Of a stretch of DNA of 25,923 nucleotides, positions 3,840-25,862 are shown one piece after another. The position numbers and the translations under genes were made by a program. The notes beneath the pieces were generated by a model. That model was given only the letters and a program-made list of their open reading frames with translations. It ran no database searches and was not told the origin of the DNA. Origin of the DNA: a virus; the IMG/VR virus record IMGVR_UViG_3300042556_002798, positions 1 to 25,923 of that record, one strand, 5' to 3'. Numbering within the stretch: position 1 is the stretch's first letter; every line of letters starts with the position of its first letter.

Positions 3840-4769
3840 ATGGCAGTCCCTTACAGCGCTCGCGGTTCCGGCGTCATGGTCGGCGTCGAGGTCACCCCCG
3901 GCACGGCCGTCAGCCGCACGAAGTCTTGGCCGATCAACGGGTCGACCCTCACCTCGACCCGCACCCGCAACGTCCGCGGCCGCCTGTCGCACGGGACCGG
4001 TGGGTTCGTCAAGGATGAGTTCGTCGCCAGCGTGGAGGTCGGCGGTGCTCTGACCATCCCCGCGTCCTACAGCGGCCTCGGGCTGTTGATGCGCGCTGCC
4101 CTCGGTGCTGCCGCGTCGTCTGGCACCGGCCCCTATACCCACACCTACGGCCCGGCCGCGGCCCTGCCCTCGCTCACGATTGAGCAGATCTACGGCGACA
4201 GCGGCCGGTCGATCCTCAACGCCGGGTGCAAGATCAACAGCCTCGGCCTGTCAGTCACCCCCGGCGGCGAGGTGCTGTGGAACGTCGACATCATCGGCAT
4301 GAGTGCTGCCGCCGACGGGTCCGCCGGTTCGCCGTCCTACCCGTCGGTGGTCTTCGCTGAGGCATACGAGTGCGTCGTGACGTGGGGTGGTAGCAGCATC
4401 GGCACCGTCAAGAGCGCCGAGGCAGTCATCACCAACGGCGCGACCCGCCGCCCGCAGGTCGGGGCCCTGACCAGCGCCGAGCCGTCCGTGGGCGTGCCCC
4501 GCCGGGCCACCGCGACCATCGTCGTCGACAAGGACAGCTTTGCCCCGCGCATCGCCGAGACCGCCGACACGACCGGCGATCTGGTGCTGACCTTCACCGA
4601 CACCGCGACCGGCGCGAAGACGATCACGATCACCCTGCAGGACTGCCGGGCGACCGTGACTGAAACGGTCGGCGGGTCGATGGCTGACCTGACCACGTCG
4701 ATTGCCTTCGCCAGCAACGACCTCCCGTCCATCGTCATCGTCAACGCGGAGTCGAGCGCCGATGCCTGA
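3840..4769 (+). CDS. Major tail tube protein (309 aa)
   Basis: Starts at ATG 3840 behind a strong GGAGG at about 3829-3833, the best ribosome site in the late module and consistent with a protein made in hundreds of copies. The N-terminus (GSGVMVGVEVTPGT) is typical of siphovirus tube proteins that begin with a short strand and a 'E.t.GT' turn. A long beta-rich body follows, with a GGEVLWNVDIIGM segment and a DTTGDLVLTFTDTATGAKTI segment near the end. It precedes the chaperone and tape-measure genes as expected. The 30-base gap upstream is one of few in the operon. Confidence 0.75.
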   Translation: MAVPYSARGSGVMVGVEVTPGTAVSRTKSWPINGSTLTSTRTRNVRGRLSHGTGGFVKDEFVASVEVGGALTIPASYSGLGLLMRAALGAAASSGTGPYTHTYGPAAALPSLTIEQIYGDSGRSILNAGCKINSLGLSVTPGGEVLWNVDIIGMSAAADGSAGSPSYPSVVFAEAYECVVTWGGSSIGTVKSAEAVITNGATRRPQVGALTSAEPSVGVPRRATATIVVDKDSFAPRIAETADTTGDLVLTFTDTATGAKTITITLQDCRATVTETVGGSMADLTTSIAFASNDLPSIVIVNAESSADA

Positions 4770-16264: not shown

Positions 16265-17181
16265 GCGCCCTCCACGGCGCGGACGTGGGCGCCGGCTTCG
16301 ATGTAGGCGACATGGTCGCGCAGGGCCACGGCCACAACCGACCGGCCAAACCCGGAGTGAGCGTCCGCCCCGCCATGCAGGCAGGCCACAACCGCCGCCC
16401 GCTCAGCCGCCGCCCCCTCCGCCCGCGCGGTGGCCACCGCGGCCTCGGCGGCCTCGGCGCGGGCGCGCTGGTACTCCACCTCGGCGCGCAGGCTCGCACG
16501 GTCGTCAAGTGCGACACCGAGCACGTCGAGCAGGTCCGGCAGGTCGTCAGCCGCGGCGCCGGCGCCAGTAAGCGCCAACGCGACCGACCCCGCAAAGACC
16601 TGCAGGACCTCGGCGCGGGCGCGCAGGGCGGCGGCTTCGTTCTCGGCGACGACCTTGCGGGCATAGGCGCGGTCGGCGCGCTGGTCAGCGCGATCGCGCT
16701 CGGCGACAACCTCGCGCAGCGCCTCGGCCACCGCAGGCAGGTCGCGGACGGTGGTCTGGGCGGCGCGCTGCTCCTCGCCGAGCGGGGCCACCTGCAGGGC
16801 CACTTCGAGAGCGAAGGCGCGCCACTGGTCTGCGATGAGGGCACGGGCGCGCAGGGCGTCGCGCTCGGCCTCGGCGGCCTCGGCGCGGGCGATGGCGATG
16901 ACGTGCTGCTCTCCGGCTCCGCGCACCATCCTGAGCAGCGCCGGCAGGTCGTCAACACTGGTTTGGTGCGCACTGTCCTCTGCATCTACAGGAGCGACCT
17001 CGCGGGCGACATCGATGGCGAAGCCGCGCCACGTCTCAGCGTCGCGCTCGGCGGCATCGGCGCTGGCGCGCAGGGCGTCGCGCTCGGCGCGCAGGGCGCG
17101 GGCCTCGGTGCGAGCATGTCCAATCCAGCGGAGAAGGTCGTCGACGTCGGTGAACTCGTCATCATCAATCTGGTCGCTCAT
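16261..17181 (-). CDS. Repeat-containing coiled-coil protein (306 aa)
   Basis: The real start is ATG 17181, in a CAGGAGCAGCCATGA junction; the open frame beyond it is shadow. The protein is almost entirely charged, Ala-rich helix. Three tandem units are visible at about 33-86, 107-157 and 180-222: an ERDALRA-type helix, then W-R-x-F-A (51-55, 120-124; QVFAG at 194-198), VAP or equivalent, and a (T).(D/R)DLP helix (75-80, 144-149, 212-215). A distinct C-terminal part (about 260-300) has VVACLHGGADAHSGFGR. It could be a filament or scaffold. Function unknown. Confidence 0.65.
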   Translation of the reverse strand: MSDQIDDDEFTDVDDLLRWIGHARTEARALRAERDALRASADAAERDAETWRGFAIDVAREVAPVDAEDSAHQTSVDDLPALLRMVRGAGEQHVIAIARAEAAEAERDALRARALIADQWRAFALEVALQVAPLGEEQRAAQTTVRDLPAVAEALREVVAERDRADQRADRAYARKVVAENEAAALRARAEVLQVFAGSVALALTGAGAAADDLPDLLDVLGVALDDRASLRAEVEYQRARAEAAEAAVATARAEGAAAERAAVVACLHGGADAHSGFGRSVVAVALRDHVAYIEAGAHVRAVEGA

Positions 17182-17650: not shown

Positions 17651-18331
17651 TCAGCCGCGGCTGCGGTCACCAGCGCTGCCGGCCGGTGGTTCGGTCGAGC
17701 GGTAGTCGGCATCCGCCATCTGCGCAGACAGGCCGGTCGCTCCGTGCATCGTCGCTCCGGTGTAGCGTCCGCCAAAGATCTTGGCGCCGGTGAGGTTTGC
17801 GCCGATGAAGTTAGCGTAGGTAGCCTCGACTCCCCTCAGGGTGGCACCGGTCAGATTGGCGCCACCGAAGTCGGCACCGTGCAGCCGACACTGCCCAATC
17901 TTGGCACCACTCAGGTCGGCGCCCGCAAGCCGGAGGCTGTTCGCAATGCCCGAGAAGACCGCACCCCTCAGGTTGGCGCCGCTAAAGTCCGGCGCGCACA
18001 TGAGATCCGCGTGCGCAAAACTGACGCCCTCGCAGTTGGCGCCCCTCAGGCTGCCTACGATGGTGGAGCCGGTGAGCGCGGCTCCACGCAGGTCTGCGTG
18101 GTCCAGGGTGACCCACGACAGCTCTGCGGAGCCCAAGTTCGCATCGCGCAGATTGGCGCCGGTGAGGTCACCGCTGATGATGATCCCGCTGAGGTCAGCA
18201 CCACTCAGGTCGGCCCCGACAAGGCTGGGTCCAGTCCACCCCGGGGGATGCTGTTTGGCGGCGCGCGCGGCGCGGCAGTTTGCGGCGTGGGCGATGGCGG
18301 CATCACGGGGCGAGATTTCAGTGGTGGACAT
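17651..18331 (-). CDS. Pentapeptide-repeat protein (226 aa)
   Basis: ATG 18331 is chosen because AGGAG lies 6 bases before it; the upstream in-frame ATG 18337 directly abuts that site. From about residue 38 to 205 the protein is runs of A(D/N)LXX pentapeptides: LVGADLSGADLSG, LTGANLRDANLGSAEL, LSGANLRGAVFSG, FGGANLTGATLRG, FIGANLTGAKIFGG. This forms a right-handed square beta-helix. In cell hosts such proteins (Qnr/MfpA type) can mimic DNA and protect or inhibit gyrase; in a phage early region a host-takeover or anti-defence role is possible but not shown. The C-terminal 20 residues are a Pro/Ser/Gly tail. Confidence 0.85.
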   Translation of the reverse strand: MSTTEISPRDAAIAHAANCRAARAAKQHPPGWTGPSLVGADLSGADLSGIIISGDLTGANLRDANLGSAELSWVTLDHADLRGAALTGSTIVGSLRGANCEGVSFAHADLMCAPDFSGANLRGAVFSGIANSLRLAGADLSGAKIGQCRLHGADFGGANLTGATLRGVEATYANFIGANLTGAKIFGGRYTGATMHGATGLSAQMADADYRSTEPPAGSAGDRSRG

Positions 18332-18348
18332 GGTCATCTCCTGTCATC

Positions 18349-18416: not shown

Positions 18417-18629
18417 TCAGGCGATGTGCCAGCGCGCCGGCGCGGTCACATCGGCGGGCACGTCGGTGACGACGATGACGTCGCGGTCGCCGTCTTGCCA
18501 GGACGCCTCGCCGCGCCAGGACGGAATCCCGGTCAGCGCGCGCAGCTCGTCAAGGGCAGCGGCGAGGGAGTCATCGCGGTGGGCGAAGCGGGCGGCGGTG
18601 GTGACGAGGGTCTTGGCGGCGGTGGTCAT
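18417..18629 (-). CDS. Small protein transcribed from its own promoter (70 aa)
   Basis: ATG 18629 follows GGAGCCGACC, the leader shared with the 21717 and 21440 genes. A sigma70-like promoter sits at 18675-18703. The protein starts with an amphipathic helix (TTAAKTLVTTAARFAHRDDSLAAALDELRAL, residues 2-32), then a Trp-rich beta stretch (SWRGEASWQDGDRDVIVVTDVP). It looks like a small alpha/beta regulator or inhibitor, but I recognise no family. The N-terminal in-frame extension (to 18674) is untranslated leader. Confidence 0.6.
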   Translation of the reverse strand: MTTAAKTLVTTAARFAHRDDSLAAALDELRALTGIPSWRGEASWQDGDRDVIVVTDVPADVTAPARWHIA

Positions 18630-18703
18630 GGTCGGCTCCGGGTGGGCTCGGGGCTCCATCGCCCCGGCCCCCAAACCTTATCGCCGCCCTCGCCAGCGGT
18701 CAA
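18630..18703 (-). promoter_or_regulatory. Promoter P-18.7 plus leader with two GGAGCC boxes
   Basis: On the minus strand the -35 TTGACC (18698-18703), 17-base spacer and -10 TAAGGT (18675-18680) form a sigma70-like promoter, with transcript start expected near 18668. The leader carries GGAGCC at 18652-18657 and again at 18634-18639, the second serving as ribosome site for ATG 18629; the two boxes are 12 bases apart, as in the copy at 21722-21745. The octamer AAGAAAGT (plus-strand orientation, 18726-18733) lies 22 bases upstream of the -35, overlapping the last codons of the 192-aa gene. Confidence 0.75.
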
Positions 18704-18723
18704 TAGCCGCCGGACAGATACAG

Positions 18724-19302
18724 CTAAGAAAGTTTGCAGCCCGCCGGAAGCCGCTTGCGCACGTCAATCGCGGCAAGCCCGCCGAGCAGCGCGCCCGCTT
18801 CGCCTGCCGTCCAGGGCCGCCCGTCGCGGGGGCACGCCCTGTCGAGCTCGGCGGCGATGCCCTCCACGTCGCAGCCGGACCGGTGCCAGAACCGCGCGAC
18901 CTTCGCCGGATCGGCAGGCCGCACGCACGCAGGGTTCGCCCCGCGCTCCGACGGGTCGGCCTTCGGCGCGCGCACCCGCACCACCGGGCGCCGGGGCACA
19001 GGCACCGGATCGGCGGCAGGCACCCACGCCCCGGGGCGCGCAGGCGGCCGCGGCCGGACGATCAGGCCCGCGTCCCGCAAGACCGCCACGGCCCGGATCG
19101 TGACGCCGCTGCCGGGCCATCGCTGGCGCCTGCAGACCAGGGCGTAGACGCGCTCGATGTCCTCGGCGACCACCTCCCGGCCGTGCGGGGTGAGCCACGG
19201 CCCGCCGGTCAGCAGCGTGGCGAGGGCAGCCGCAGCGGCGGGCGAGGGCGGCACGTAGGCGGGCACAGGGAGGCGGGGGTAGACGACGCGGGCGGTGCTC
19301 AA
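18724..19302 (-). CDS. Hypothetical protein with Pro/Arg-rich linker (192 aa)
   Basis: Starts at TTG 19302, supported by GGGAGGACCA 5 bases upstream and by overlap with the stop of the previous gene; no better start is near. Residues about 22-83 are helical with a charged stretch (VVAEDIERVYALVCRRQRWPGSGVTI then AVLRDAGLIV), compatible with a winged-helix-like fold but without a certain recognition helix. Residues 85-118 are a Pro/Arg linker. A C-terminal helical domain (about 130-185) has ARFWHRSGCDVEGIAAELDR. It may bind DNA, given charge and layout. Unrecognised family. Confidence 0.6.
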   Translation of the reverse strand: MSTARVVYPRLPVPAYVPPSPAAAAALATLLTGGPWLTPHGREVVAEDIERVYALVCRRQRWPGSGVTIRAVAVLRDAGLIVRPRPPARPGAWVPAADPVPVPRRPVVRVRAPKADPSERGANPACVRPADPAKVARFWHRSGCDVEGIAAELDRACPRDGRPWTAGEAGALLGGLAAIDVRKRLPAGCKLS

Positions 19303-19487
19303 TGGTCCTCCCTACCGGCACGCGCCAGAAGCGGCCCGATGAATGGCGCGAGCATCGGAATGGCGCCGACGGCGGCGCAGAGCAAGACGAGCGCGACACA
19401 GCAGACGACCCCGGGACTGACGAGCCATGCCAGCGTCTCCCATGCCTGTGCGGCGACAGCATCGGAACCGGTGCAAGTGGCGCTCAT
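19299..19487 (-). CDS. Small membrane protein (62 aa)
   Basis: ATG 19487 overlaps the stop of the thyX gene; the long in-frame upstream stretch is shadow. The protein has a hydrophobic region at about residues 15-55, long enough for two short membrane helices (LAWLVSPGVVCCVALVLLCAA and IPMLAPFIGPLL) around a Gly/Pro break. It contains three Cys. It ends AGREDH, with its stop overlapping the TTG start of the 192-aa gene. Size and topology resemble small phage membrane proteins; function unknown. Confidence 0.6.
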   Translation of the reverse strand: MSATCTGSDAVAAQAWETLAWLVSPGVVCCVALVLLCAAVGAIPMLAPFIGPLLARAGREDH

Positions 19488-20335
19488 CGGCCACCCCCCG
19501 CGATCCACGCCTCGACGTCGGCGCGCTCCCGCGGCGGCAGGCCGGACAGGTCCGGCGCGGTGCCGGTGCGCAGGGCGGCGGCGAGGGCGCGCTGGGCGGA
19601 CGCGGACAGGGTGACGGCGTCGCGGACGTGCTCGATCCAAGCTGCGTGGGTCAGCGGGAAGGCGGCGGAGACGATGCCCTCGATGGCGTTGGCGTACTCG
19701 CGGATCTCGTCCTGCGCGTTGCCGGCGCCGCGCAGCTTCAGGAAGTGCAGCAGGTTGTGCAGGTCGCTTGCCCACGTCCATTCGGTGTAGGTCGACATCG
19801 GCAGGACCATCCGGGCCTGTTCCTTCGCCACGCCGAGGTCGCGCAGGCTGCGATAGCCGCCCACCGCGCCACGCTCGGCGCGCATGAGCACCCCGCAGGC
19901 ATCGTTCAGCCGTTCCGGGTCAAGCCGCCCGCCGTGGCCCTGTTGGTTGGCGCCCGGTGCGGGCTCAGCATGCAGCGCGGGCGGACGGTAGCAGTCGGCG
20001 GGCAGGTCGGTGTAGCGGGCGGAGACCTCGTTCACGCTGGCCATCCGGTGCCGCATCCACTGCCGGGCGACGAAGAAGGGCGCGCGGATGTGGAATACCA
20101 GCCGGGCCATCTCCATCGGCGTTGTGTGCCGGTGCCGCACAAGGAAGCCGATCAGGCGCGCATCAGCGTCGGCCCCGCGGTCGGCGTCATGCCGGCCGTA
20201 GGACACGCGGGCGGCGCGGGCGATGGCGGCGTCGTTGCCGTGGTAGTCCACGAGGCTGACGAAGCCGGCGGGGCCGATGGGGATGCGCACGCCGATGAGG
20301 CCGTCGGCGGCGAGGTTCTGTGGGCGGAGGGTCAT
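19484..20335 (-). CDS. thyX: Flavin-dependent thymidylate synthase ThyX (283 aa)
   Basis: ATG 20335 follows GGAGCCGACC at a slightly longer spacing. The enzyme makes dTMP from dUMP using FAD, NADPH and methylenetetrahydrofolate, without dihydrofolate as product. Diagnostic residues: the ThyX motif RHR at 95-97 followed by seven residues and Ser105 (RHRMASVNEVS), preceded by HTTPMEMARLVFHIRAPFFV (70-89) and followed by ARYTDL. A conserved-type STYTEWTW and DLHNLLHFLKLR segment lies near 190-215. Length is in the usual 220-300 range with an N-terminal extension of about 20 residues. Phages carry it to raise dTMP for replication. The small protein at 20332-20658 overlaps its start by 4 bases. 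Confidence 0.92.
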   Translation of the reverse strand: MTLRPQNLAADGLIGVRIPIGPAGFVSLVDYHGNDAAIARAARVSYGRHDADRGADADARLIGFLVRHRHTTPMEMARLVFHIRAPFFVARQWMRHRMASVNEVSARYTDLPADCYRPPALHAEPAPGANQQGHGGRLDPERLNDACGVLMRAERGAVGGYRSLRDLGVAKEQARMVLPMSTYTEWTWASDLHNLLHFLKLRGAGNAQDEIREYANAIEGIVSAAFPLTHAAWIEHVRDAVTLSASAQRALAAALRTGTAPDLSGLPPRERADVEAWIAGGGR

Positions 20336-20658
20336 GTGGTCGGCTCCTTCGCGGCCTTGGTGATGGCAGCGTCAACGATCTTCAGCACCGTGCGCAGGCC
20401 GAGCGCCTCAAGGGCCGCGCGAGTGGCGCAGTTCTCGTGTAGGCGGATGCGCTCCGCGTCCGTGAGGTGCAGAAACCCCGCGGCAGCAGGGGCCGGCCGT
20501 CCAGCCGATGCGGCAGCTCGGCATGCCAGCGCGTCGCTGCGGGATGCCGCCGCATGGGCATCGCAGGTCTGTATCTCCTCATCCAACACCCGCAGGATGA
20601 GCGCAAGGTGCGCCTCGGCCTTCTCGGCGCGGGCGCGCAGGGCGTCCTCGGTACTCAT
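20332..20658 (-). CDS. Small helical protein coupled to thyX (108 aa)
   Basis: ATG 20658 overlaps the stop of the 261-aa gene, and its own stop overlaps the thyX start. The N-terminal helix (EDALRARAEKAEAHLALILRVLDEEI) is a coiled coil with the same 'DALRARA' beginning as the repeats of the 306-aa protein. The rest is Ala-rich, with a His/Arg-rich stretch (LTDAERIRLHENCATRAALEAL). Contains three Cys. No family recognised. Confidence 0.6.
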   Translation of the reverse strand: MSTEDALRARAEKAEAHLALILRVLDEEIQTCDAHAAASRSDALACRAAASAGRPAPAAAGFLHLTDAERIRLHENCATRAALEALGLRTVLKIVDAAITKAAKEPTT

Positions 20659-21440
20659 GCGTCCACCCGCTTCGCCGCCCACAGCAGCGCGCTGACGGTC
20701 ATCACGACGCCGGGGCCGCTGGGGAAGGCCAGCAGCACGCAGTCAGCGGTCACGAAGGGCTCGCCGTAGGCGGCGATGGCGACGTGCTCGCGGACCACGC
20801 CGAAGATGCCGTGCGGGTTGCTGCTCAACACAGACAGGCCCATCGCCCCGGCCGGGGCGTACAGGCCGTCGTCGGCGAAGCGCCAGACCGAACCGACCGG
20901 GGCGCGCTGCGCCCACGCGGACGGCGCAGGGGCGGACACAGGGACCGGCGCAGGGACCGGCGCAGGCATCGGCGCAGCCTTGATCTGCGATTCCCACGCC
21001 GCCTCCTCCGCGGCGCGGCACCATTCCGCCAGCGCCTGGGTGGTCGCGGAGGCCGGCGCGGCCGGCGCGGCCTTGATCTGCGCCTCCCACGCCGCCTCCT
21101 CCGCGGCCACGCGGGCGCCTTCGCCGTCGGCGGGCTCGGGGAAGTCCTCGCCGGGGAAGGTCGGCTCGGCGCTGCGCTGCGCGGCGGGGTGGTCCTCGGG
21201 GGACAGGCCCTCGACAGCGACGGACGCGGGGATCAGGGACCGCGCGGTCTCCCACACGAGCACGCCGCCGGCGCCGCCGGGGAGCAGGCCGGTGTCGGCG
21301 CACTCGCGCAGGGCCAGCGCGAGGTCGTCGCTGTGGATGGTCTCGCCGCCGTCGGTGTCGGTGGAGATGTAGCCCATGATCACCTGGGCGACGTTGCGGG
21401 CGCGGTGCGTGATCTGGGCGGAGTTCAGGGGTTCGGTCAT
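20655..21440 (-). CDS. Large protein with internal duplication and Pro/Ala linker (261 aa)
   Basis: ATG 21440 follows GGAGCCGACC; the longer open frame is shadow. The N-terminal domain (1-75) is helical (SAQITHRARNVAQVIMGYISTD... SDDLALALRECADTGLLP). The middle has two copies of AEEAAWE(A/S)QIKAAP (residues 113-126 and 144-157), encoded by 41-base direct repeats. A Pro/Ala/Val linker follows (about 158-178), then a C-terminal beta-type domain with GSVWRFADDGLYAPAGAMG and GEPFVTADCVLLAFPSGPG. No family is recognised. Confidence 0.6.
   Translation of the reverse strand: MTEPLNSAQITHRARNVAQVIMGYISTDTDGGETIHSDDLALALRECADTGLLPGGAGGVLVWETARSLIPASVAVEGLSPEDHPAAQRSAEPTFPGEDFPEPADGEGARVAAEEAAWEAQIKAAPAAPASATTQALAEWCRAAEEAAWESQIKAAPMPAPVPAPVPVSAPAPSAWAQRAPVGSVWRFADDGLYAPAGAMGLSVLSSNPHGIFGVVREHVAIAAYGEPFVTADCVLLAFPSGPGVVMTVSALLWAAKRVDA
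20974..21014. repeat. Direct repeat copy 1 (41 bp) within the 261-aa gene
   Basis: This 41-base stretch matches 21067-21107 at 38 positions and encodes AEEAAWESQIKAA on the minus strand. The pair is separated by 52 bases. A triplet of shorter repeats (ACCGGCGCAGGG type, 20942-20975) lies beside it and encodes part of the Pro/Ala linker. Confidence 0.85.
21067..21107. repeat. Direct repeat copy 2 (41 bp) within the 261-aa gene
   Basis: Matches 20974-21014 at 38 of 41 positions and encodes AEEAAWEAQIKAA on the minus strand. The reading frame is kept in both copies, so this is an in-frame duplication within the gene. Confidence 0.85.
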
Positions 21441-21510: not shown

Positions 21511-21717
21511 TCAGGCGGCGAGGAAGAAGCAGCCGGCGCCATTGTCGACGAGTTGCATCCCGCGGCTGCGGACAGCGCTCCGCAGGAGGTCGCACCCGGA
21601 CTCGCCGATCAGGTCGGTCAACTCGGGCCAGATGACCAGCGCGCCAACCGGCAGGTAGTTGGCGACGGCGTTGGCGAAGGTCAGCAGGAAGTCGGTGGCA
21701 GCGGGCTGGGTGTTCAT
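21511..21717 (-). CDS. Small protein under its own promoter (68 aa)
   Basis: ATG 21717 follows the leader GGAGCCGACC and a promoter at 21765-21793; the in-frame upstream part (to 21747) is leader. A hydrophobic helix-like first half (TDFLLTFANAVANYLPVGALVIW, 8-30) is followed by DLIGESGCDLLRSAVRSRGMQLVD and a hydrophobic end (GCFFLAA). It may be an amphipathic helical protein; no family recognised. It is separated from the next gene (ATG 21440) by 70 bases that hold a GC-rich imperfect hairpin (CCCGTCCGC/GCGGGCGGG, about 21487-21505). Confidence 0.6.
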   Translation of the reverse strand: MNTQPAATDFLLTFANAVANYLPVGALVIWPELTDLIGESGCDLLRSAVRSRGMQLVDNGAGCFFLAA

Positions 21718-21823
21718 GGTCGGCTCCAGGTTCGTCCGCGGCTCCACCGCCGCCGGACACCTTCACCCTATCGGACCGCTGCGCACCGGTCAATAGCCTT
21801 TCGCTACAAAGACGAAAGAAAGT
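21718..21823 (-). promoter_or_regulatory. Promoter P-21.8 plus leader and upstream element
   Basis: On the minus strand: -35 TTGACC (21788-21793), 17-base spacer, -10 TAGGGT (21765-21770). The leader carries GGAGCC boxes at 21740-21745 and 21722-21727, spaced 12 bases as in the 18.7 kb copy. Upstream, an AAGAAAGT octamer (21816-21823, plus orientation) is exactly 22 bases from the -35. A perfect inverted repeat CTTTCG-N9-CGAAAG (21798-21818), 4 bases upstream of the -35, and a direct repeat of CTTTCGCTAC at 21847-21856 could be protein binding sites. Confidence 0.75.
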
Positions 21824-21852: not shown

Positions 21853-22443
21853 CTACTCGACCCACCCGCGGGCGCGCGCCGCGTCCGCAGACCAGCGCGA
21901 CACCCATCGCCGTTTGGGGGCCGCGAGCTCGCCGGCCCGCACGTCGCGGGGGCGCTTGTCGTTGCCCCACTGCCCGCCGCCGGTGACCCCCGCAGGCACC
22001 CATCCGGCCGCGATCAACGACGTGCCGGGTTCGGAGGCGAGCGTGTAGGTCACGATAGGGCGCGGGTCCGGCGCGGTCCGGGGCAGCCTGCGCAGCGCGC
22101 CGCCGGGCGCCGGGGCGTGGCCGGGGCCGTAGAGCGGCAGCGTGTGGTCCCGGGCGGCGCGGGCTGCAGCGGCGAGGACCGCCGACGCGCACCCGGGCGG
22201 CGCGCCCTCGGGCACGATCCCGCGCACCAGCTCCCACCACCCATCGGCGTCCAGGTGCCGCGACGACGGGCGGCCGACGACGCCCCAAGCGCAGGGCCAG
22301 CGCGTATCGGCACGCACTACCTCGACACCGAAGAGCCCCCCCGCGCAGCGCGGCAGGTGCCGGTGGTGCCGGGCGCACTGCCGGATCGGCTCGCTGATGC
22401 CGATGATCCGCGTGGTTAGCGGGACAGCGCCGGGCGGCCTCAT
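21853..22443 (-). CDS. XF1762-like phage protein, possible GNAT-type fold (196 aa)
   Basis: ATG 22443 overlaps the RuvC-like gene's stop. The sequence follows the XF1762 family of phage proteins: an N-terminal HHRHLPRC segment, then CAWGVVGRPSSRHLD (51-65) and the hallmark YTLASEPGTSLIAAGW (133-148). In this family the segments recall the acetyl-CoA-binding core of GNAT acetyltransferases, though activity is not established to my knowledge. Compared with others, an insert of about 20 residues rich in Pro and Arg lies near 108-128. A DNA- or nucleotide-modifying role is possible, given the RuvC and RecT genes nearby. Family call by memory of motif. Confidence 0.7.
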   Translation of the reverse strand: MRPPGAVPLTTRIIGISEPIRQCARHHRHLPRCAGGLFGVEVVRADTRWPCAWGVVGRPSSRHLDADGWWELVRGIVPEGAPPGCASAVLAAAARAARDHTLPLYGPGHAPAPGGALRRLPRTAPDPRPIVTYTLASEPGTSLIAAGWVPAGVTGGGQWGNDKRPRDVRAGELAAPKRRWVSRWSADAARARGWVE

Positions 22444-23105: not shown

Positions 23106-23539
23106 TTGCGCGCCTCTGCGATGCCGTCGATCACGGCGCGCACCACGGCAGACAGCTTGGTCCCGGCCGGGCGAAGTTGCTCAAGCAGCGCGGGCGCGTC
23201 GTCGCGCCATGCGTCGCCAGACAGCGTCATGATGCCGTAATCGTGCTCGTTCTCGGACTGCGAGCGCTTGGCTAGCGCCGCGGCCCGGATCGGCATCGGC
23301 AGCGAGGCCCGCGGGTGCCGGGGCTGAACCAGCGCCAGCGTCTTGCCGGCGCCCCGGGGCCAGTGGTGAAGCAGCCAGCCGCAGCGGGTCATCCCGGCGA
23401 TGGCCGCCTCGGCATCGACGAAGGCCAGCCGCTCCCATCCAACGTGGGCGGTGGTCTGCTCATGCGGTGCGTAGGCACGCGTCCGGCGGCGGGACGTGTC
23501 GAGGGCCGGGGCGTCGGTGGTCGGCTCGGCGCTGGTCAT
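23102..23539 (-). CDS. Hypothetical protein (145 aa)
   Basis: ATG 23539 overlaps the stop of the HTH gene; the in-frame extension to 23581 is shadow. Contains WERLAFVDAEAAIAGMTRCGWLLHHWPRGAGKTLALVQPRHP (a GAGKT-like loop at about 79-83 is present but not followed by Walker B; it may be chance) and a C-terminal helix (LSAVVRAVIDGIAEARK). Acidic-rich middle with HDYGIMTLSGDAWRDDAP. No family recognised. Sits between the HTH regulator candidate and the RuvC-like gene. Confidence 0.6.
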   Translation of the reverse strand: MTSAEPTTDAPALDTSRRRTRAYAPHEQTTAHVGWERLAFVDAEAAIAGMTRCGWLLHHWPRGAGKTLALVQPRHPRASLPMPIRAAALAKRSQSENEHDYGIMTLSGDAWRDDAPALLEQLRPAGTKLSAVVRAVIDGIAEARK

Positions 23540-23838
23540 GTGCTCTCCACGGGCGCGACCGGCACCCACCCCGGGATCCACGCCGCGGCCGCAGCGTTGA
23601 GCGCGTCGGCACGGCCGGGGCGCGCTGTGACCTCGGCGACAGCTTCGGCACGGAAGACGGCCTGCACACCCACGTCGTCAACGAAGGCCCGCGGGTCGAC
23701 CGCCGGGATGCCGCGCGCCGTGCGGTGGTGCCCGATGGCCGGCCGGGTGACGCCGATCAGGCAGGCCAGCAGGCCGTCGGGCACGCGGCCGATCAGGTCG
23801 GCGGCGGGGTGTTGGGGGATGACGGCACGGCGGGTCAC
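23536..23838 (-). CDS. Helix-turn-helix protein, candidate early regulator (100 aa)
   Basis: Starts at GTG 23838, with GGAGCCCGCC 5 bases upstream, and lies directly under the promoter at 23869-23897. Residues 17-44 (GRVPDGLLACLIGVTRPAIGH then HRTARGIPAV) match a helix-turn-helix of the 'lG.vpDaelA...GvsR.aV..rR...gIP' type, with DGLLACLIGV as first helix and TRPAIGHHRTARG as recognition helix. The rest is an acidic Ala/Val helix region that may dimerise. It could bind the operator-like sequences near the three promoters, but that is inference. Confidence 0.65.
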   Translation of the reverse strand: MTRRAVIPQHPAADLIGRVPDGLLACLIGVTRPAIGHHRTARGIPAVDPRAFVDDVGVQAVFRAEAVAEVTARPGRADALNAAAAAWIPGWVPVAPVEST

Positions 23839-23868: not shown

Positions 23869-23897
23869 AGGCTATCCGCCGCGCGTCATGCCGTCAA
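23869..23897 (-). promoter_or_regulatory. Promoter P-23.9
   Basis: Minus strand: -35 TTGACG (23892-23897), 17-base spacer, -10 TAGCCT (23869-23874). All three minus-strand promoters also share CTATTGAC around the -35. The expected transcript start is near 23862, about 24 bases before GTG 23838. No AAGAAAGT octamer is seen at the expected upstream distance, unlike the other two. Confidence 0.65.
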
Positions 23898-23969
23898 TAG
23901 CGGCGGGGAAGCGGCGCGCCGGAGGCCCGGTCGGCGCGCGGGGATGGGGCCACGGGCGGCCCGGGACTG

Positions 23970-24153: not shown

Positions 24154-24669
24154 TCAGGCGGTGCGGTACCACTTCGCGATCAGGTCGCGGAGGTGGTCAG
24201 GGCGGCCGGGGCGGTGGATGGGGATGCGGTGCGGGTCGGCGGTGCCGTTGTACAGGGCGCGATCAACCGCCAAGGACCGGTCAAACTCGGCGCGCGCCGC
24301 GGGCGGCATGACGCCCCAGCCCCTTTGCCGCGGCGAGAGGACAACCGGGCGGCCTTCAAGCCGGCGGGCGATGGCCCTGAAGGCGACGCGCAGGCTTGTT
24401 GCGCGGCCGGGCGACTCCGTCTCGATCCCGCTGCCGCTCCACACGTTCACGCACCAACCGGCGCGGCTGTACCGGCCCTTCCGCTCCCACCATGCCATCC
24501 CGGTGACGCCGATCTCGGGGTTGGACCAGCCGCGCTCTTTAGTCTGCATGTCCGGCTGGCGGCTGTGTTCGCGCAGCAGCTTGGCCAGCGCGCGGGCCTC
24601 GGGCGTGCCGGTGTAGGGGTAGCGGTCGGCGGTGTAGCCGCCGGGATGGGTGCGCTTGGCTGCAGGCAT
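24154..24669 (-). CDS. Hypothetical protein (171 aa)
   Basis: ATG 24669 overlaps the RecT stop by one base. N-terminus with YTADRYPYTGTPEARALAKLLREHS, then EIGVTGMAWWERKGRYSRAGWCVNVWSGSG, a beta-like Trp-rich section, then AFRAIARRLEGRPVVLSPRQRGWG and a C-terminal helix (DHLRDLIAKWYRTA). Arg/Trp-rich; might be a nucleic-acid-associated protein of the recombination set, judged only from its coupling to RecT. No family recognised. Confidence 0.6.
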   Translation of the reverse strand: MPAAKRTHPGGYTADRYPYTGTPEARALAKLLREHSRQPDMQTKERGWSNPEIGVTGMAWWERKGRYSRAGWCVNVWSGSGIETESPGRATSLRVAFRAIARRLEGRPVVLSPRQRGWGVMPPAARAEFDRSLAVDRALYNGTADPHRIPIHRPGRPDHLRDLIAKWYRTA

Positions 24670-25862
24670 CAGACCTCCCGGGCCGGCGGGTTGCCGGCGA
24701 TCTCGCGGGCCTTGGCCATCAAGCGGGGCATCGCAGCGCGGGCAGCCTCGACGGTCGGCGCGCGGCCGGCCTTGCGCATGCCCTCAATCCAAAGATCGAC
24801 GGCGTCCTGCCCGAAACGCTCAGCATCCTCGTCAGTGATGATCAGGCCGTCGAATGCAGAGGCGGCGACATCCCCACCGAGTCGCTCCATGTCGCGCACG
24901 GTCATCTCAACCGTGGCGCCTTGCGGCAGGAACAAGCGCGACTCCGAGGACAGCGACGGATGCCCCTTGGGCTCGTCCGGAAGGTAGAGCCCTGAGCGCG
25001 TCGCAGGGGCCTCCGTGGGCGCTTGCTCCACCTCGGCGGGCGCTGACACGTCCGGCGCGGCGGGCGCGGTCTCAGGGGCCGTCGGCGCGGCAGGCGGGGC
25101 GTCGGCGGGCTCGGGCTCGGCGGGCGCGGGCAGGGCGCGGGCGGCGGGGGCCTCGATGGTGGGCAGGGCGGGCGCCGGGGCGGTGGCGTACCACTCGCGC
25201 AGGCCGGGGATGGGGATGGGCGCTTGGGGCAGGATGCCGCGGTCGACCAAGATCTTGACAGCCTTGCCGCGCGCCATGCCCACCGGGTCGGACTGCCACG
25301 GGCCGCCGCCCTTACTGCGGACCTTGCGGACTTCGATCTCGCCAGCGCTGATCCAGTGCCGCCGGACCGCGCCGGTCCCGTCCTCGGTGCGCACGATGAC
25401 GCCGCGCAGGTGTTCCCACTTGGTCGGGCGCTCGTCCGGGTTCGGCTTGACCTCGGCGACATCGCCGTCGACGTCGAGCGTGATCTCGTCCTTGACGCCG
25501 ACCGGGTAGGTCTCCACCGCGACGCCGGCCGCGCGCGCCAAGGCGATCCGGCCGCGCGCCGAGGGCACACCCATCGGGCCGCCCTGCCCGGGGTACAGGT
25601 AGCCGGTCGCGCTCGCGTCGCCGGGGATGCCGGGCATCAGACCCATCTTGGCAAGGTTGATCACCGCGGCGCCCAAGGCGGCCGGGGCGGCCTTGCACAG
25701 CGCGGGGGTCGCGGTCAGGATGGCCTCAGCGTTGCTTCGCCATGCCTTGACCCATCCCAACAGCGGCGGCGGGGCGGTCTTCGGGGTGTGGCCATACAGG
25801 GCGAGGATGCCGAGGCCGAAGGCACGGGCAAGGCCCTCGGGATCGGTGGGGATGTCAGTCAT
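24669..25862 (-). CDS. recT: RecT-family single-strand annealing protein with C-terminal extension (397 aa)
   Basis: ATG 25862 is preceded by AGGACGCCCAACC. Residues about 15-225 match RecT recombinases: NAEAILTATPALCKAAPAAL (44-63), AKMGLMPGIPGDASATGYLY (71-90), the IALARAAGV segment (106-114), KWEHLRGVIVRTEDG (148-162) and GPWQSDPVGMARGKAVKIL (187-205). RecT anneals homologous single strands during phage recombination. Compared with the usual about 270 residues, this one has an extra 170: a Pro/Ala/Glu linker (about 226-288) and a C-terminal helical region (about 290-397; DMERLGGDVAASAFDGLI and MRKAGRAPTVEAARAAMP). The partner exonuclease is not in the window and would lie beyond 25923. Confidence 0.85.
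   Translation of the reverse strand: MTDIPTDPEGLARAFGLGILALYGHTPKTAPPPLLGWVKAWRSNAEAILTATPALCKAAPAALGAAVINLAKMGLMPGIPGDASATGYLYPGQGGPMGVPSARGRIALARAAGVAVETYPVGVKDEITLDVDGDVAEVKPNPDERPTKWEHLRGVIVRTEDGTGAVRRHWISAGEIEVRKVRSKGGGPWQSDPVGMARGKAVKILVDRGILPQAPIPIPGLREWYATAPAPALPTIEAPAARALPAPAEPEPADAPPAAPTAPETAPAAPDVSAPAEVEQAPTEAPATRSGLYLPDEPKGHPSLSSESRLFLPQGATVEMTVRDMERLGGDVAASAFDGLIITDEDAERFGQDAVDLWIEGMRKAGRAPTVEAARAAMPRLMAKAREIAGNPPAREV

Follow-up and report, generated by a model that had tools for sequence, protein, structure and literature searches.

The window, a 25.9-kb virus record from IMG/VR with a GC content of 72%, carries two copies of one block on its minus strand, each placed ahead of a small open reading frame (ORF; Table 1). 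In both copies of this block, which we refer to as a cassette, ACTTTCTT is followed by 22 nt, the hexamers TTGACC-N17-TAAGGT or TTGACC-N17-TAGGGT, a leader and GGAGCCGACCATGA; on the plus strand, the ACTTTCTT of cassette 1 reads AAGAAAGT. The leader of cassette 2 also contains two GGAGCC motifs that are 12 nt apart. All of the block elements named in the original prediction were present in both copies, on the minus strand. Searching for the upstream box, which begins with ACTTTCTT, together with the promoter, allowing up to three mismatches, returned exactly 2 matches in the window compared with 0.00 expected from shuffled windows, and the promoter pattern TATTGAC-N18-TAnnnT with at most one mismatch returned 3 matches compared with 0.04 expected. 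For the promoter, the original count of two copies was therefore incomplete, as a third copy (23899–23869) lies without a box ahead of a gene for a 100-residue protein.

Other genes on the minus strand include one for a ThyX-type thymidylate synthase (19484–20335) and one for a 228-residue protein (17651–18337) that has the look, by eye, of a pentapeptide-repeat protein and matches several unnamed PHROGs. The ORF at 20655–21440 contains two 45-nt direct repeats (20970–21107), which are 93% identical and encode a repeated peptide.

Table 1 Features of the two cassettes, the third promoter and neighbouring genes in the window
Feature	Position	Strand	Details
Cassette 1, whole block	18733–18627	minus	ACTTTCTT 18733–18726; 22 nt; TTGACC 18703–18698; 17 nt; TAAGGT 18680–18675
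Cassette 1, leader elements		minus	GGAGCC 18657–18652; 12 nt; GGAGCC 18639–18634; ATG 18629
Cassette 1, box (candidate operator)	18716–18733	minus	ACTTTC-TTAGCT-GTATCT; exact in the left half, with a degenerate right half
Cassette 1, predicted promoter	18675–18705	minus	TA-TTGACC-N17-TAAGGT, sigma70-type; predicted +1 ~18668
Cassette 1, predicted leader hairpin	18646–18668	minus	GCCGGGGC-GATGGA-GCCCCGAGC; -16.3 kcal/mol, z -3.3, p 0.006; upstream GGAGCC in loop/3' arm
Cassette 1, predicted Shine–Dalgarno and start codon	18627–18639	minus	GGAGCCGACCATG
70-aa accessory ORF	18417–18629	minus	behind cassette 1
Cassette 2, whole block	21823–21715	minus	ACTTTCTT 21823–21816; TTGACC 21793–21788; TAGGGT 21770–21765; ATG 21717
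Cassette 2, box	21806–21823	minus	ACTTTC-TTTCGT-CTTTGT
Cassette 2, predicted promoter	21765–21795	minus	TA-TTGACC-N17-TAGGGT; predicted +1 ~21758
Cassette 2, predicted leader hairpin	21734–21758	minus	GTCCGGCGGC-GGTGGA-GCCGCGGAC; -17.6 kcal/mol, p 0.028
Cassette 2, predicted Shine–Dalgarno and start codon	21715–21727	minus	GGAGCCGACCATG
68-aa accessory ORF	21511–21717	minus	behind cassette 2; unrelated ORFs instead in both relatives at this locus
Mom-like DNA-modification gene	21853–22443	minus	phrog_1384, 5.2e-9; at this place in the window only; its end adjoins cassette 2 on the upstream side
Third promoter copy (class B)	23869–23899	minus	TATTGACG-N17-TAGCCT; without box and leader hairpin
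100-aa conserved HTH-like protein	23536–23838	minus	behind the third promoter; possible regulator
RecT-like annealing protein	24669–25862	minus	phrog_148, 3.4e-5 (weak); candidate for promoting cassette recombination

Protein and pattern searches of IMG/VR recovered four relatives, G1 (3300034101_004157), G2 (3300009081_000018), G3 (3300042914_003281) and G4 (3300042314_001732); all five genomes are metagenomic contigs. Compared with the window, ThyX is 87% identical in G1 and G2 and 50% identical in G4, and the tape-measure protein is 96% identical in G3. The relatives contain 17 full (class A) cassettes, with 5, 4, 3 and 5 in G1 to G4, respectively, and the two of the window bring the set to 19. 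Each contig has the sigma70-type promoter as a full cassette in 2–5 copies, which lie between small accessory genes and all face one way within a contig, and in the relatives' contigs the cassettes and the class B promoters occupy the non-structural region. No relative was found at the DNA level among annotated phages and plasmids, a looser promoter-to-start pattern yielded no sixth relative, and no Rfam family matched the block. The nearest ThyX matches are in Rhodobacter and Thermus phages (about 44%); the terminase is weakly nearest to those of Arthrobacter and Microbacterium phages (about 28%), and helicase matches are widely scattered. Further genes in G1 specify a ribonucleotide reductase, a DnaN-like DNA polymerase sliding clamp and a DNA methyltransferase, which, for a contig of about 50 kb, is an extensive complement of nucleotide and replication functions. 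In the early region of G1, ARAGORN predicted a tRNA-Arg(gcg) on the strand opposite the genes (L053, 7090–7181, minus); this call is probably spurious.

TATTGAC is invariant across the cassettes, being the search pattern that found them, and the -10 hexamer is TAnnnT in 17 of 19, with CTATAAACC in G1 16718 and G1 17474. These are hexamers of the sigma70 type, TTGACN and TANNNT, 17 nt apart, suggesting that the host primary sigma factor would read the promoter, with a predicted transcription start 7 nt after the -10 hexamer. Class B promoters, which precede core genes, keep TATTGAC-N18-TAnnnT without the box, and their leaders fold no better than mononucleotide shuffles. The genes behind class A cassettes are mostly private to one phage; those behind class B promoters, the helicase and HTH-like genes among them, are common to several relatives.

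Across the five phages, every one of the 19 cassettes has its box beginning 28 nt ahead of TATTGAC, and 17 keep ACTTTC exactly. The 18-bp consensus of the box, ACTTTC-N6-GAWWGT, forms a perfect palindrome in five copies; most copies have a degenerate right half. Outside cassettes, ACTTTCTT does not occur in the window, G1, G2 or G4; G3 adds a single match, the palindrome partner inside a cassette. Of the dyads scored across the aligned region, the 6-6-6 dyad at the box ranked first, with 3.6 of 6 matches compared with a mean of 1.5 (s.d. 0.5); many positions were scanned and the copies are related to each other. One G4 copy has the perfect dyad ACAATC-N6-GATTGT, in which the halves are altered on both sides. 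The box probably acts as a dyad operator of 18 bp with its centre near -56, and we regard it, not the paired GGAGCC, as the candidate for a conserved control site. The G4 cassettes 38017 and 40015 (L103, ~2017–2080 and ~4015–4080), alone among the 19 copies, carry terminator-like 13-pair stems, the second with one mismatch.

Downstream of the promoter, a GC-rich hairpin starts within a few nucleotides of the predicted +1. A hairpin was predicted in all 19 leaders, and in 18 it was more stable than dinucleotide shuffles, giving a combined p of 6e-11, or 5e-8 in a reduced set; both values ignore relatedness between copies. Two types of loop, GNTGRA and (A)GC-n-AACCA, were seen, each of them also present in the distant G4 on different stems. 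Covariation support for the hairpin is thin: among six leaders, a single base pair showed compensation and one change produced U-G, and the AACCA-loop leaders gave a count of zero in a MAFFT alignment that misplaced the stems. The hairpin is followed by CGGAGCCGACCATGA, or in G4 by GACACCGACCATGA or similar. The distance from box to ATG is about 107 nt, and the conserved island, including some upstream flank, extends over about 145 nt.

Of the two GGAGCC motifs in this leader, the downstream copy reads as the Shine–Dalgarno part of the standard GGAGCCGACCATG leader; the upstream copy, where present, would be the junction of the loop (GGA) with the 3' arm of the hairpin (GCC). At the same locus in relatives, the pair is 14 or 16 nt apart, and one of them has GGAAGCC; most copies lack the upstream motif. 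The exact 12-nt spacing is therefore coincidental, and the pair is not a conserved feature, as the upstream motif joins the hairpin in only some copies. Thus, in related phages, the promoter geometry and the distance from box to promoter were kept as the original prediction had anticipated, but the spacing of the GGAGCC pair was not.

Several other readings of these elements can be considered. The original prediction had proposed the paired GGAGCC as an RNA- or protein-binding control site. Both copies in the window do have the pair at 12 nt, but relatives keep neither the spacing nor the upstream motif, and hairpin geometry accounts for that motif, so that a conserved binding site of this kind is very improbable. 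The box, for its part, might be an UP element or an A/T-rich phasing tract for the C-terminal domain of the RNA polymerase alpha subunit rather than the site of a regulator. The box is A/T-rich although the genome is 72% GC, and about one helical turn downstream of it comes another A/T-rich patch, aTTGTag. This explanation is possible and we entertain it tentatively, although the conservation of particular bases goes beyond mere A/T content and the region's best dyad falls on the box, with its five perfect copies and the changed halves of one in G4. It is considerably harder to assign the box to an intrinsic terminator of the upstream gene, as its U-tract, in a terminator–promoter composite like the promoter early stem-loops (PeSLs) of T4-type phages. 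The two G4 stems do overlap the box (GAGTCGAGAGCGC...GCGCTCTCGACTT-TCTG) and one terminator-like site lies at 18754–18736 in the window; however, the other 17 copies have no strong stem before the box, the site in the window falls within the coding end of the upstream gene, and terminator-like sites are no commoner in the region than in shuffles (3 versus 2.5). We therefore consider a terminator improbable and retain the dyad operator as the preferred reading of the box.

To follow the genes around the cassettes, we used pairwise identity profiles, in which the background was 0.49 and its 95th percentile 0.55. At the locus of cassette 1 (18705/26344/16863), the upstream gene is 94–97% identical (profile mostly 92–99%) and the leaders are 87–90% identical, and the first gene behind them is non-homologous, at or near background. 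No homologue of the 70-residue ORF was found in the four relatives, in which the cassettes at that locus precede other proteins. Similarly, G2 7578 and G3 3595 are identical in box and promoter (100%) and nearly so in the leader (98%), with the gene at background. The gene can also be kept where the upstream side differs, as in G1 17474/G3 3595 and G2 13721/G3 1117. The window cassette at 21795 and G2 13721 share a 146-nt island of 95% identity (-58 to +86) flanked by different genes on both sides, within which the 31-nt promoter is identical (31/31) and the leader 96% identical. The shared upstream flank ends at -654 in the window, compared with -56 in G1 and G2, in which it meets the cassette directly.

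Three-way comparison showed one clean parental switch inside each of three chimeric cassettes. G3 3595 combines the upstream half of G1 16718 with the downstream half of G1 17474, with the switch between about +20 and +40; G1 19275 combines G3 1117 with G3 562, switching near +20; and G2 13721 combines G1 23566 with G3 1117, switching between +60 and +80. In the case of G3 3595 and G1 19275, one cassette corresponds to two tandem cassettes of another phage fused together, so that an entire unit of cassette plus gene (756 or 555 nt) has been gained or lost. The original prediction that a promoter–leader module was copied as a unit ahead of unrelated small proteins is strengthened by the many more copies in relatives and by the exchange between them. 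The cassette thus appears to be a gene-exchange joint: recombination within it exchanges, adds or removes genes, so that an incoming gene would come under the promoter and start signal that the phage uses as standard. Beside G1 16718 (~16580–16740, L052), G2 7578 and G3 3595, there is also a divergent promoter, whose leftward gene is, by eye, MazG-like in G1 and G3 and DUF262-like in G2; the leftward side therefore exchanges genes too. A divergent immunity region was rejected, as this promoter drives a MazG-like or DUF262-like protein and no recognised repressor.

One concern is that the chimeric cassettes could be repeat-driven assembly chimaeras, which is possible; the short identical runs between cassettes of the same contig (28 of the 30 pairs share no run above 25 nt; the remaining pairs reach 33 and 42 nt) and the homologous flanks that resume on both sides beyond the replaced genes argue against this. 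A different explanation is that the cassettes are ordinary early promoters, kept independently and alike through the same host RNA polymerase and regulator, with gene turnover as general mosaicism in which the cassette has no role. Class B promoters share the TATTGAC-N18-TAnnnT pattern without the rest, so part of the likeness between cassettes is functional constraint, and phage genomes are mosaic anyway. However, the match between the window cassette at 21795 and G2 13721 includes the spacers and lies between unrelated flanks, far beyond what constraint would give, and the parental switches fall at three different points within the cassette. This explanation is therefore unlikely. We instead favour, with a probability of roughly 0.8, the interpretation that the block, about 145 bp long, is a mobile expression cassette comprising a regulator box, an early promoter of the host sigma70 type, a 5' hairpin, a Shine–Dalgarno sequence and an ATG, and serving as a joint for gene exchange.

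From these sequence comparisons, one can envisage how such a cassette would work. The phage family would maintain several diverged copies in its early region, and annealing recombination of the RecE/RecT type would use their homology. A RecE-like protein is encoded (phrog_434, 2.7e-20), and in G1 and G2 a cassette sits between the RecE-like and RecT-like genes. A small ORF that arrives in this way would find a promoter and start site already in place and would come under the shared control of the box, where a dimeric regulator may bind near -56, with activation as likely as repression. The hairpin may protect the 5' end and stabilise the message, or insulate the ribosome site from the variable sequence downstream. 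The conserved 100-residue protein (92–97% identical in G1 and G2, 38% in G4) has a promoter of its own without a box. Its structural model (pLDDT 88.8) gave weak fold matches mostly to DNA-binding HTH domains, the best being the GcrA DNA-binding domain (Z 3.1), and no family stood out in the fold search, making an HTH identity plausible. More speculatively, the whole may be a dedicated gene-acquisition device, in which the diverged cassettes are standing landing sites and the phage's own RecE/RecT pair captures or swaps small ORFs, perhaps anti-host, from co-infecting relatives into one regulon of a dimeric regulator acting on the ACTTTC-N6-GAWWGT box; we put this forward tentatively. In phage genomes that otherwise lack annotation, the cassette could serve to flag accessory genes, some of which may encode anti-host or anti-defence proteins, and leader reuse as a phage means to standardise the expression of newly acquired genes becomes a testable question.

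The closest functional parallel is provided by the PeSLs of T4-type phages, reportedly described by Arbiol et al. in 2010 and Comeau et al. in 2014. Like a PeSL, the cassette is a repeated non-coding element with a putative early promoter and a predicted stem-loop, located between small accessory genes and apparently acting as a joint for modular shuffling. The role of PeSLs in modular gene shuffling has been described (PMC4503421). Unlike in PeSLs, the predicted stem-loop here follows the promoter, within the 5' leader, and is not an upstream terminator, a strong upstream stem being found in only 2 of 19 copies, and the cassette adds the upstream dyad box, the Shine–Dalgarno sequence and the ATG. 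Its carriers also differ, as this is a high-GC tailed phage with a tape-measure protein in which no T4-type genes were recognised. Stoperators of cluster A mycobacteriophages are repressor sites scattered genome-wide that stop transcription; the box resembles them as a short repeat tied to transcription control, but occurs only attached to a promoter.

In layout, the cassette resembles the ESAS and SAS of cluster K mycobacteriophages, in which SigA-like promoters with 17–18-nt spacing and imperfect inverted repeats (ESAS) are followed by a conserved start-associated sequence (SAS) with AGGAGCC next to the ATG (PMC3203893; PMC11373665). Both are repeated, nearly one-directional and limited to non-structural genes, and the cassette matches the ESAS in having a predicted promoter, TTGACN-N17-TAnnnT, and a dyad, ACTTTC-N6-GAWWGT, that is degenerate in most copies. 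In the cassette, however, the 6-6-6 dyad sits upstream of the -35 at a constant distance and a leader hairpin is added, and chimeric cassettes and gene exchange are documented; a search for the 13-bp SAS consensus GGGATAGGAGCCC with up to two mismatches gave no match. The cassette thus appears to work like PeSLs and to be laid out like ESAS/SAS while belonging to neither, because its carrier is not a T4-type phage, it has no general terminator part and it lacks the SAS consensus. These comparisons suggest that promoter-borne gene shuffling, known for T4-type phages, also operates in an unrelated high-GC lineage, with a different layout of operator, promoter, 5' hairpin, ribosome site and start codon.
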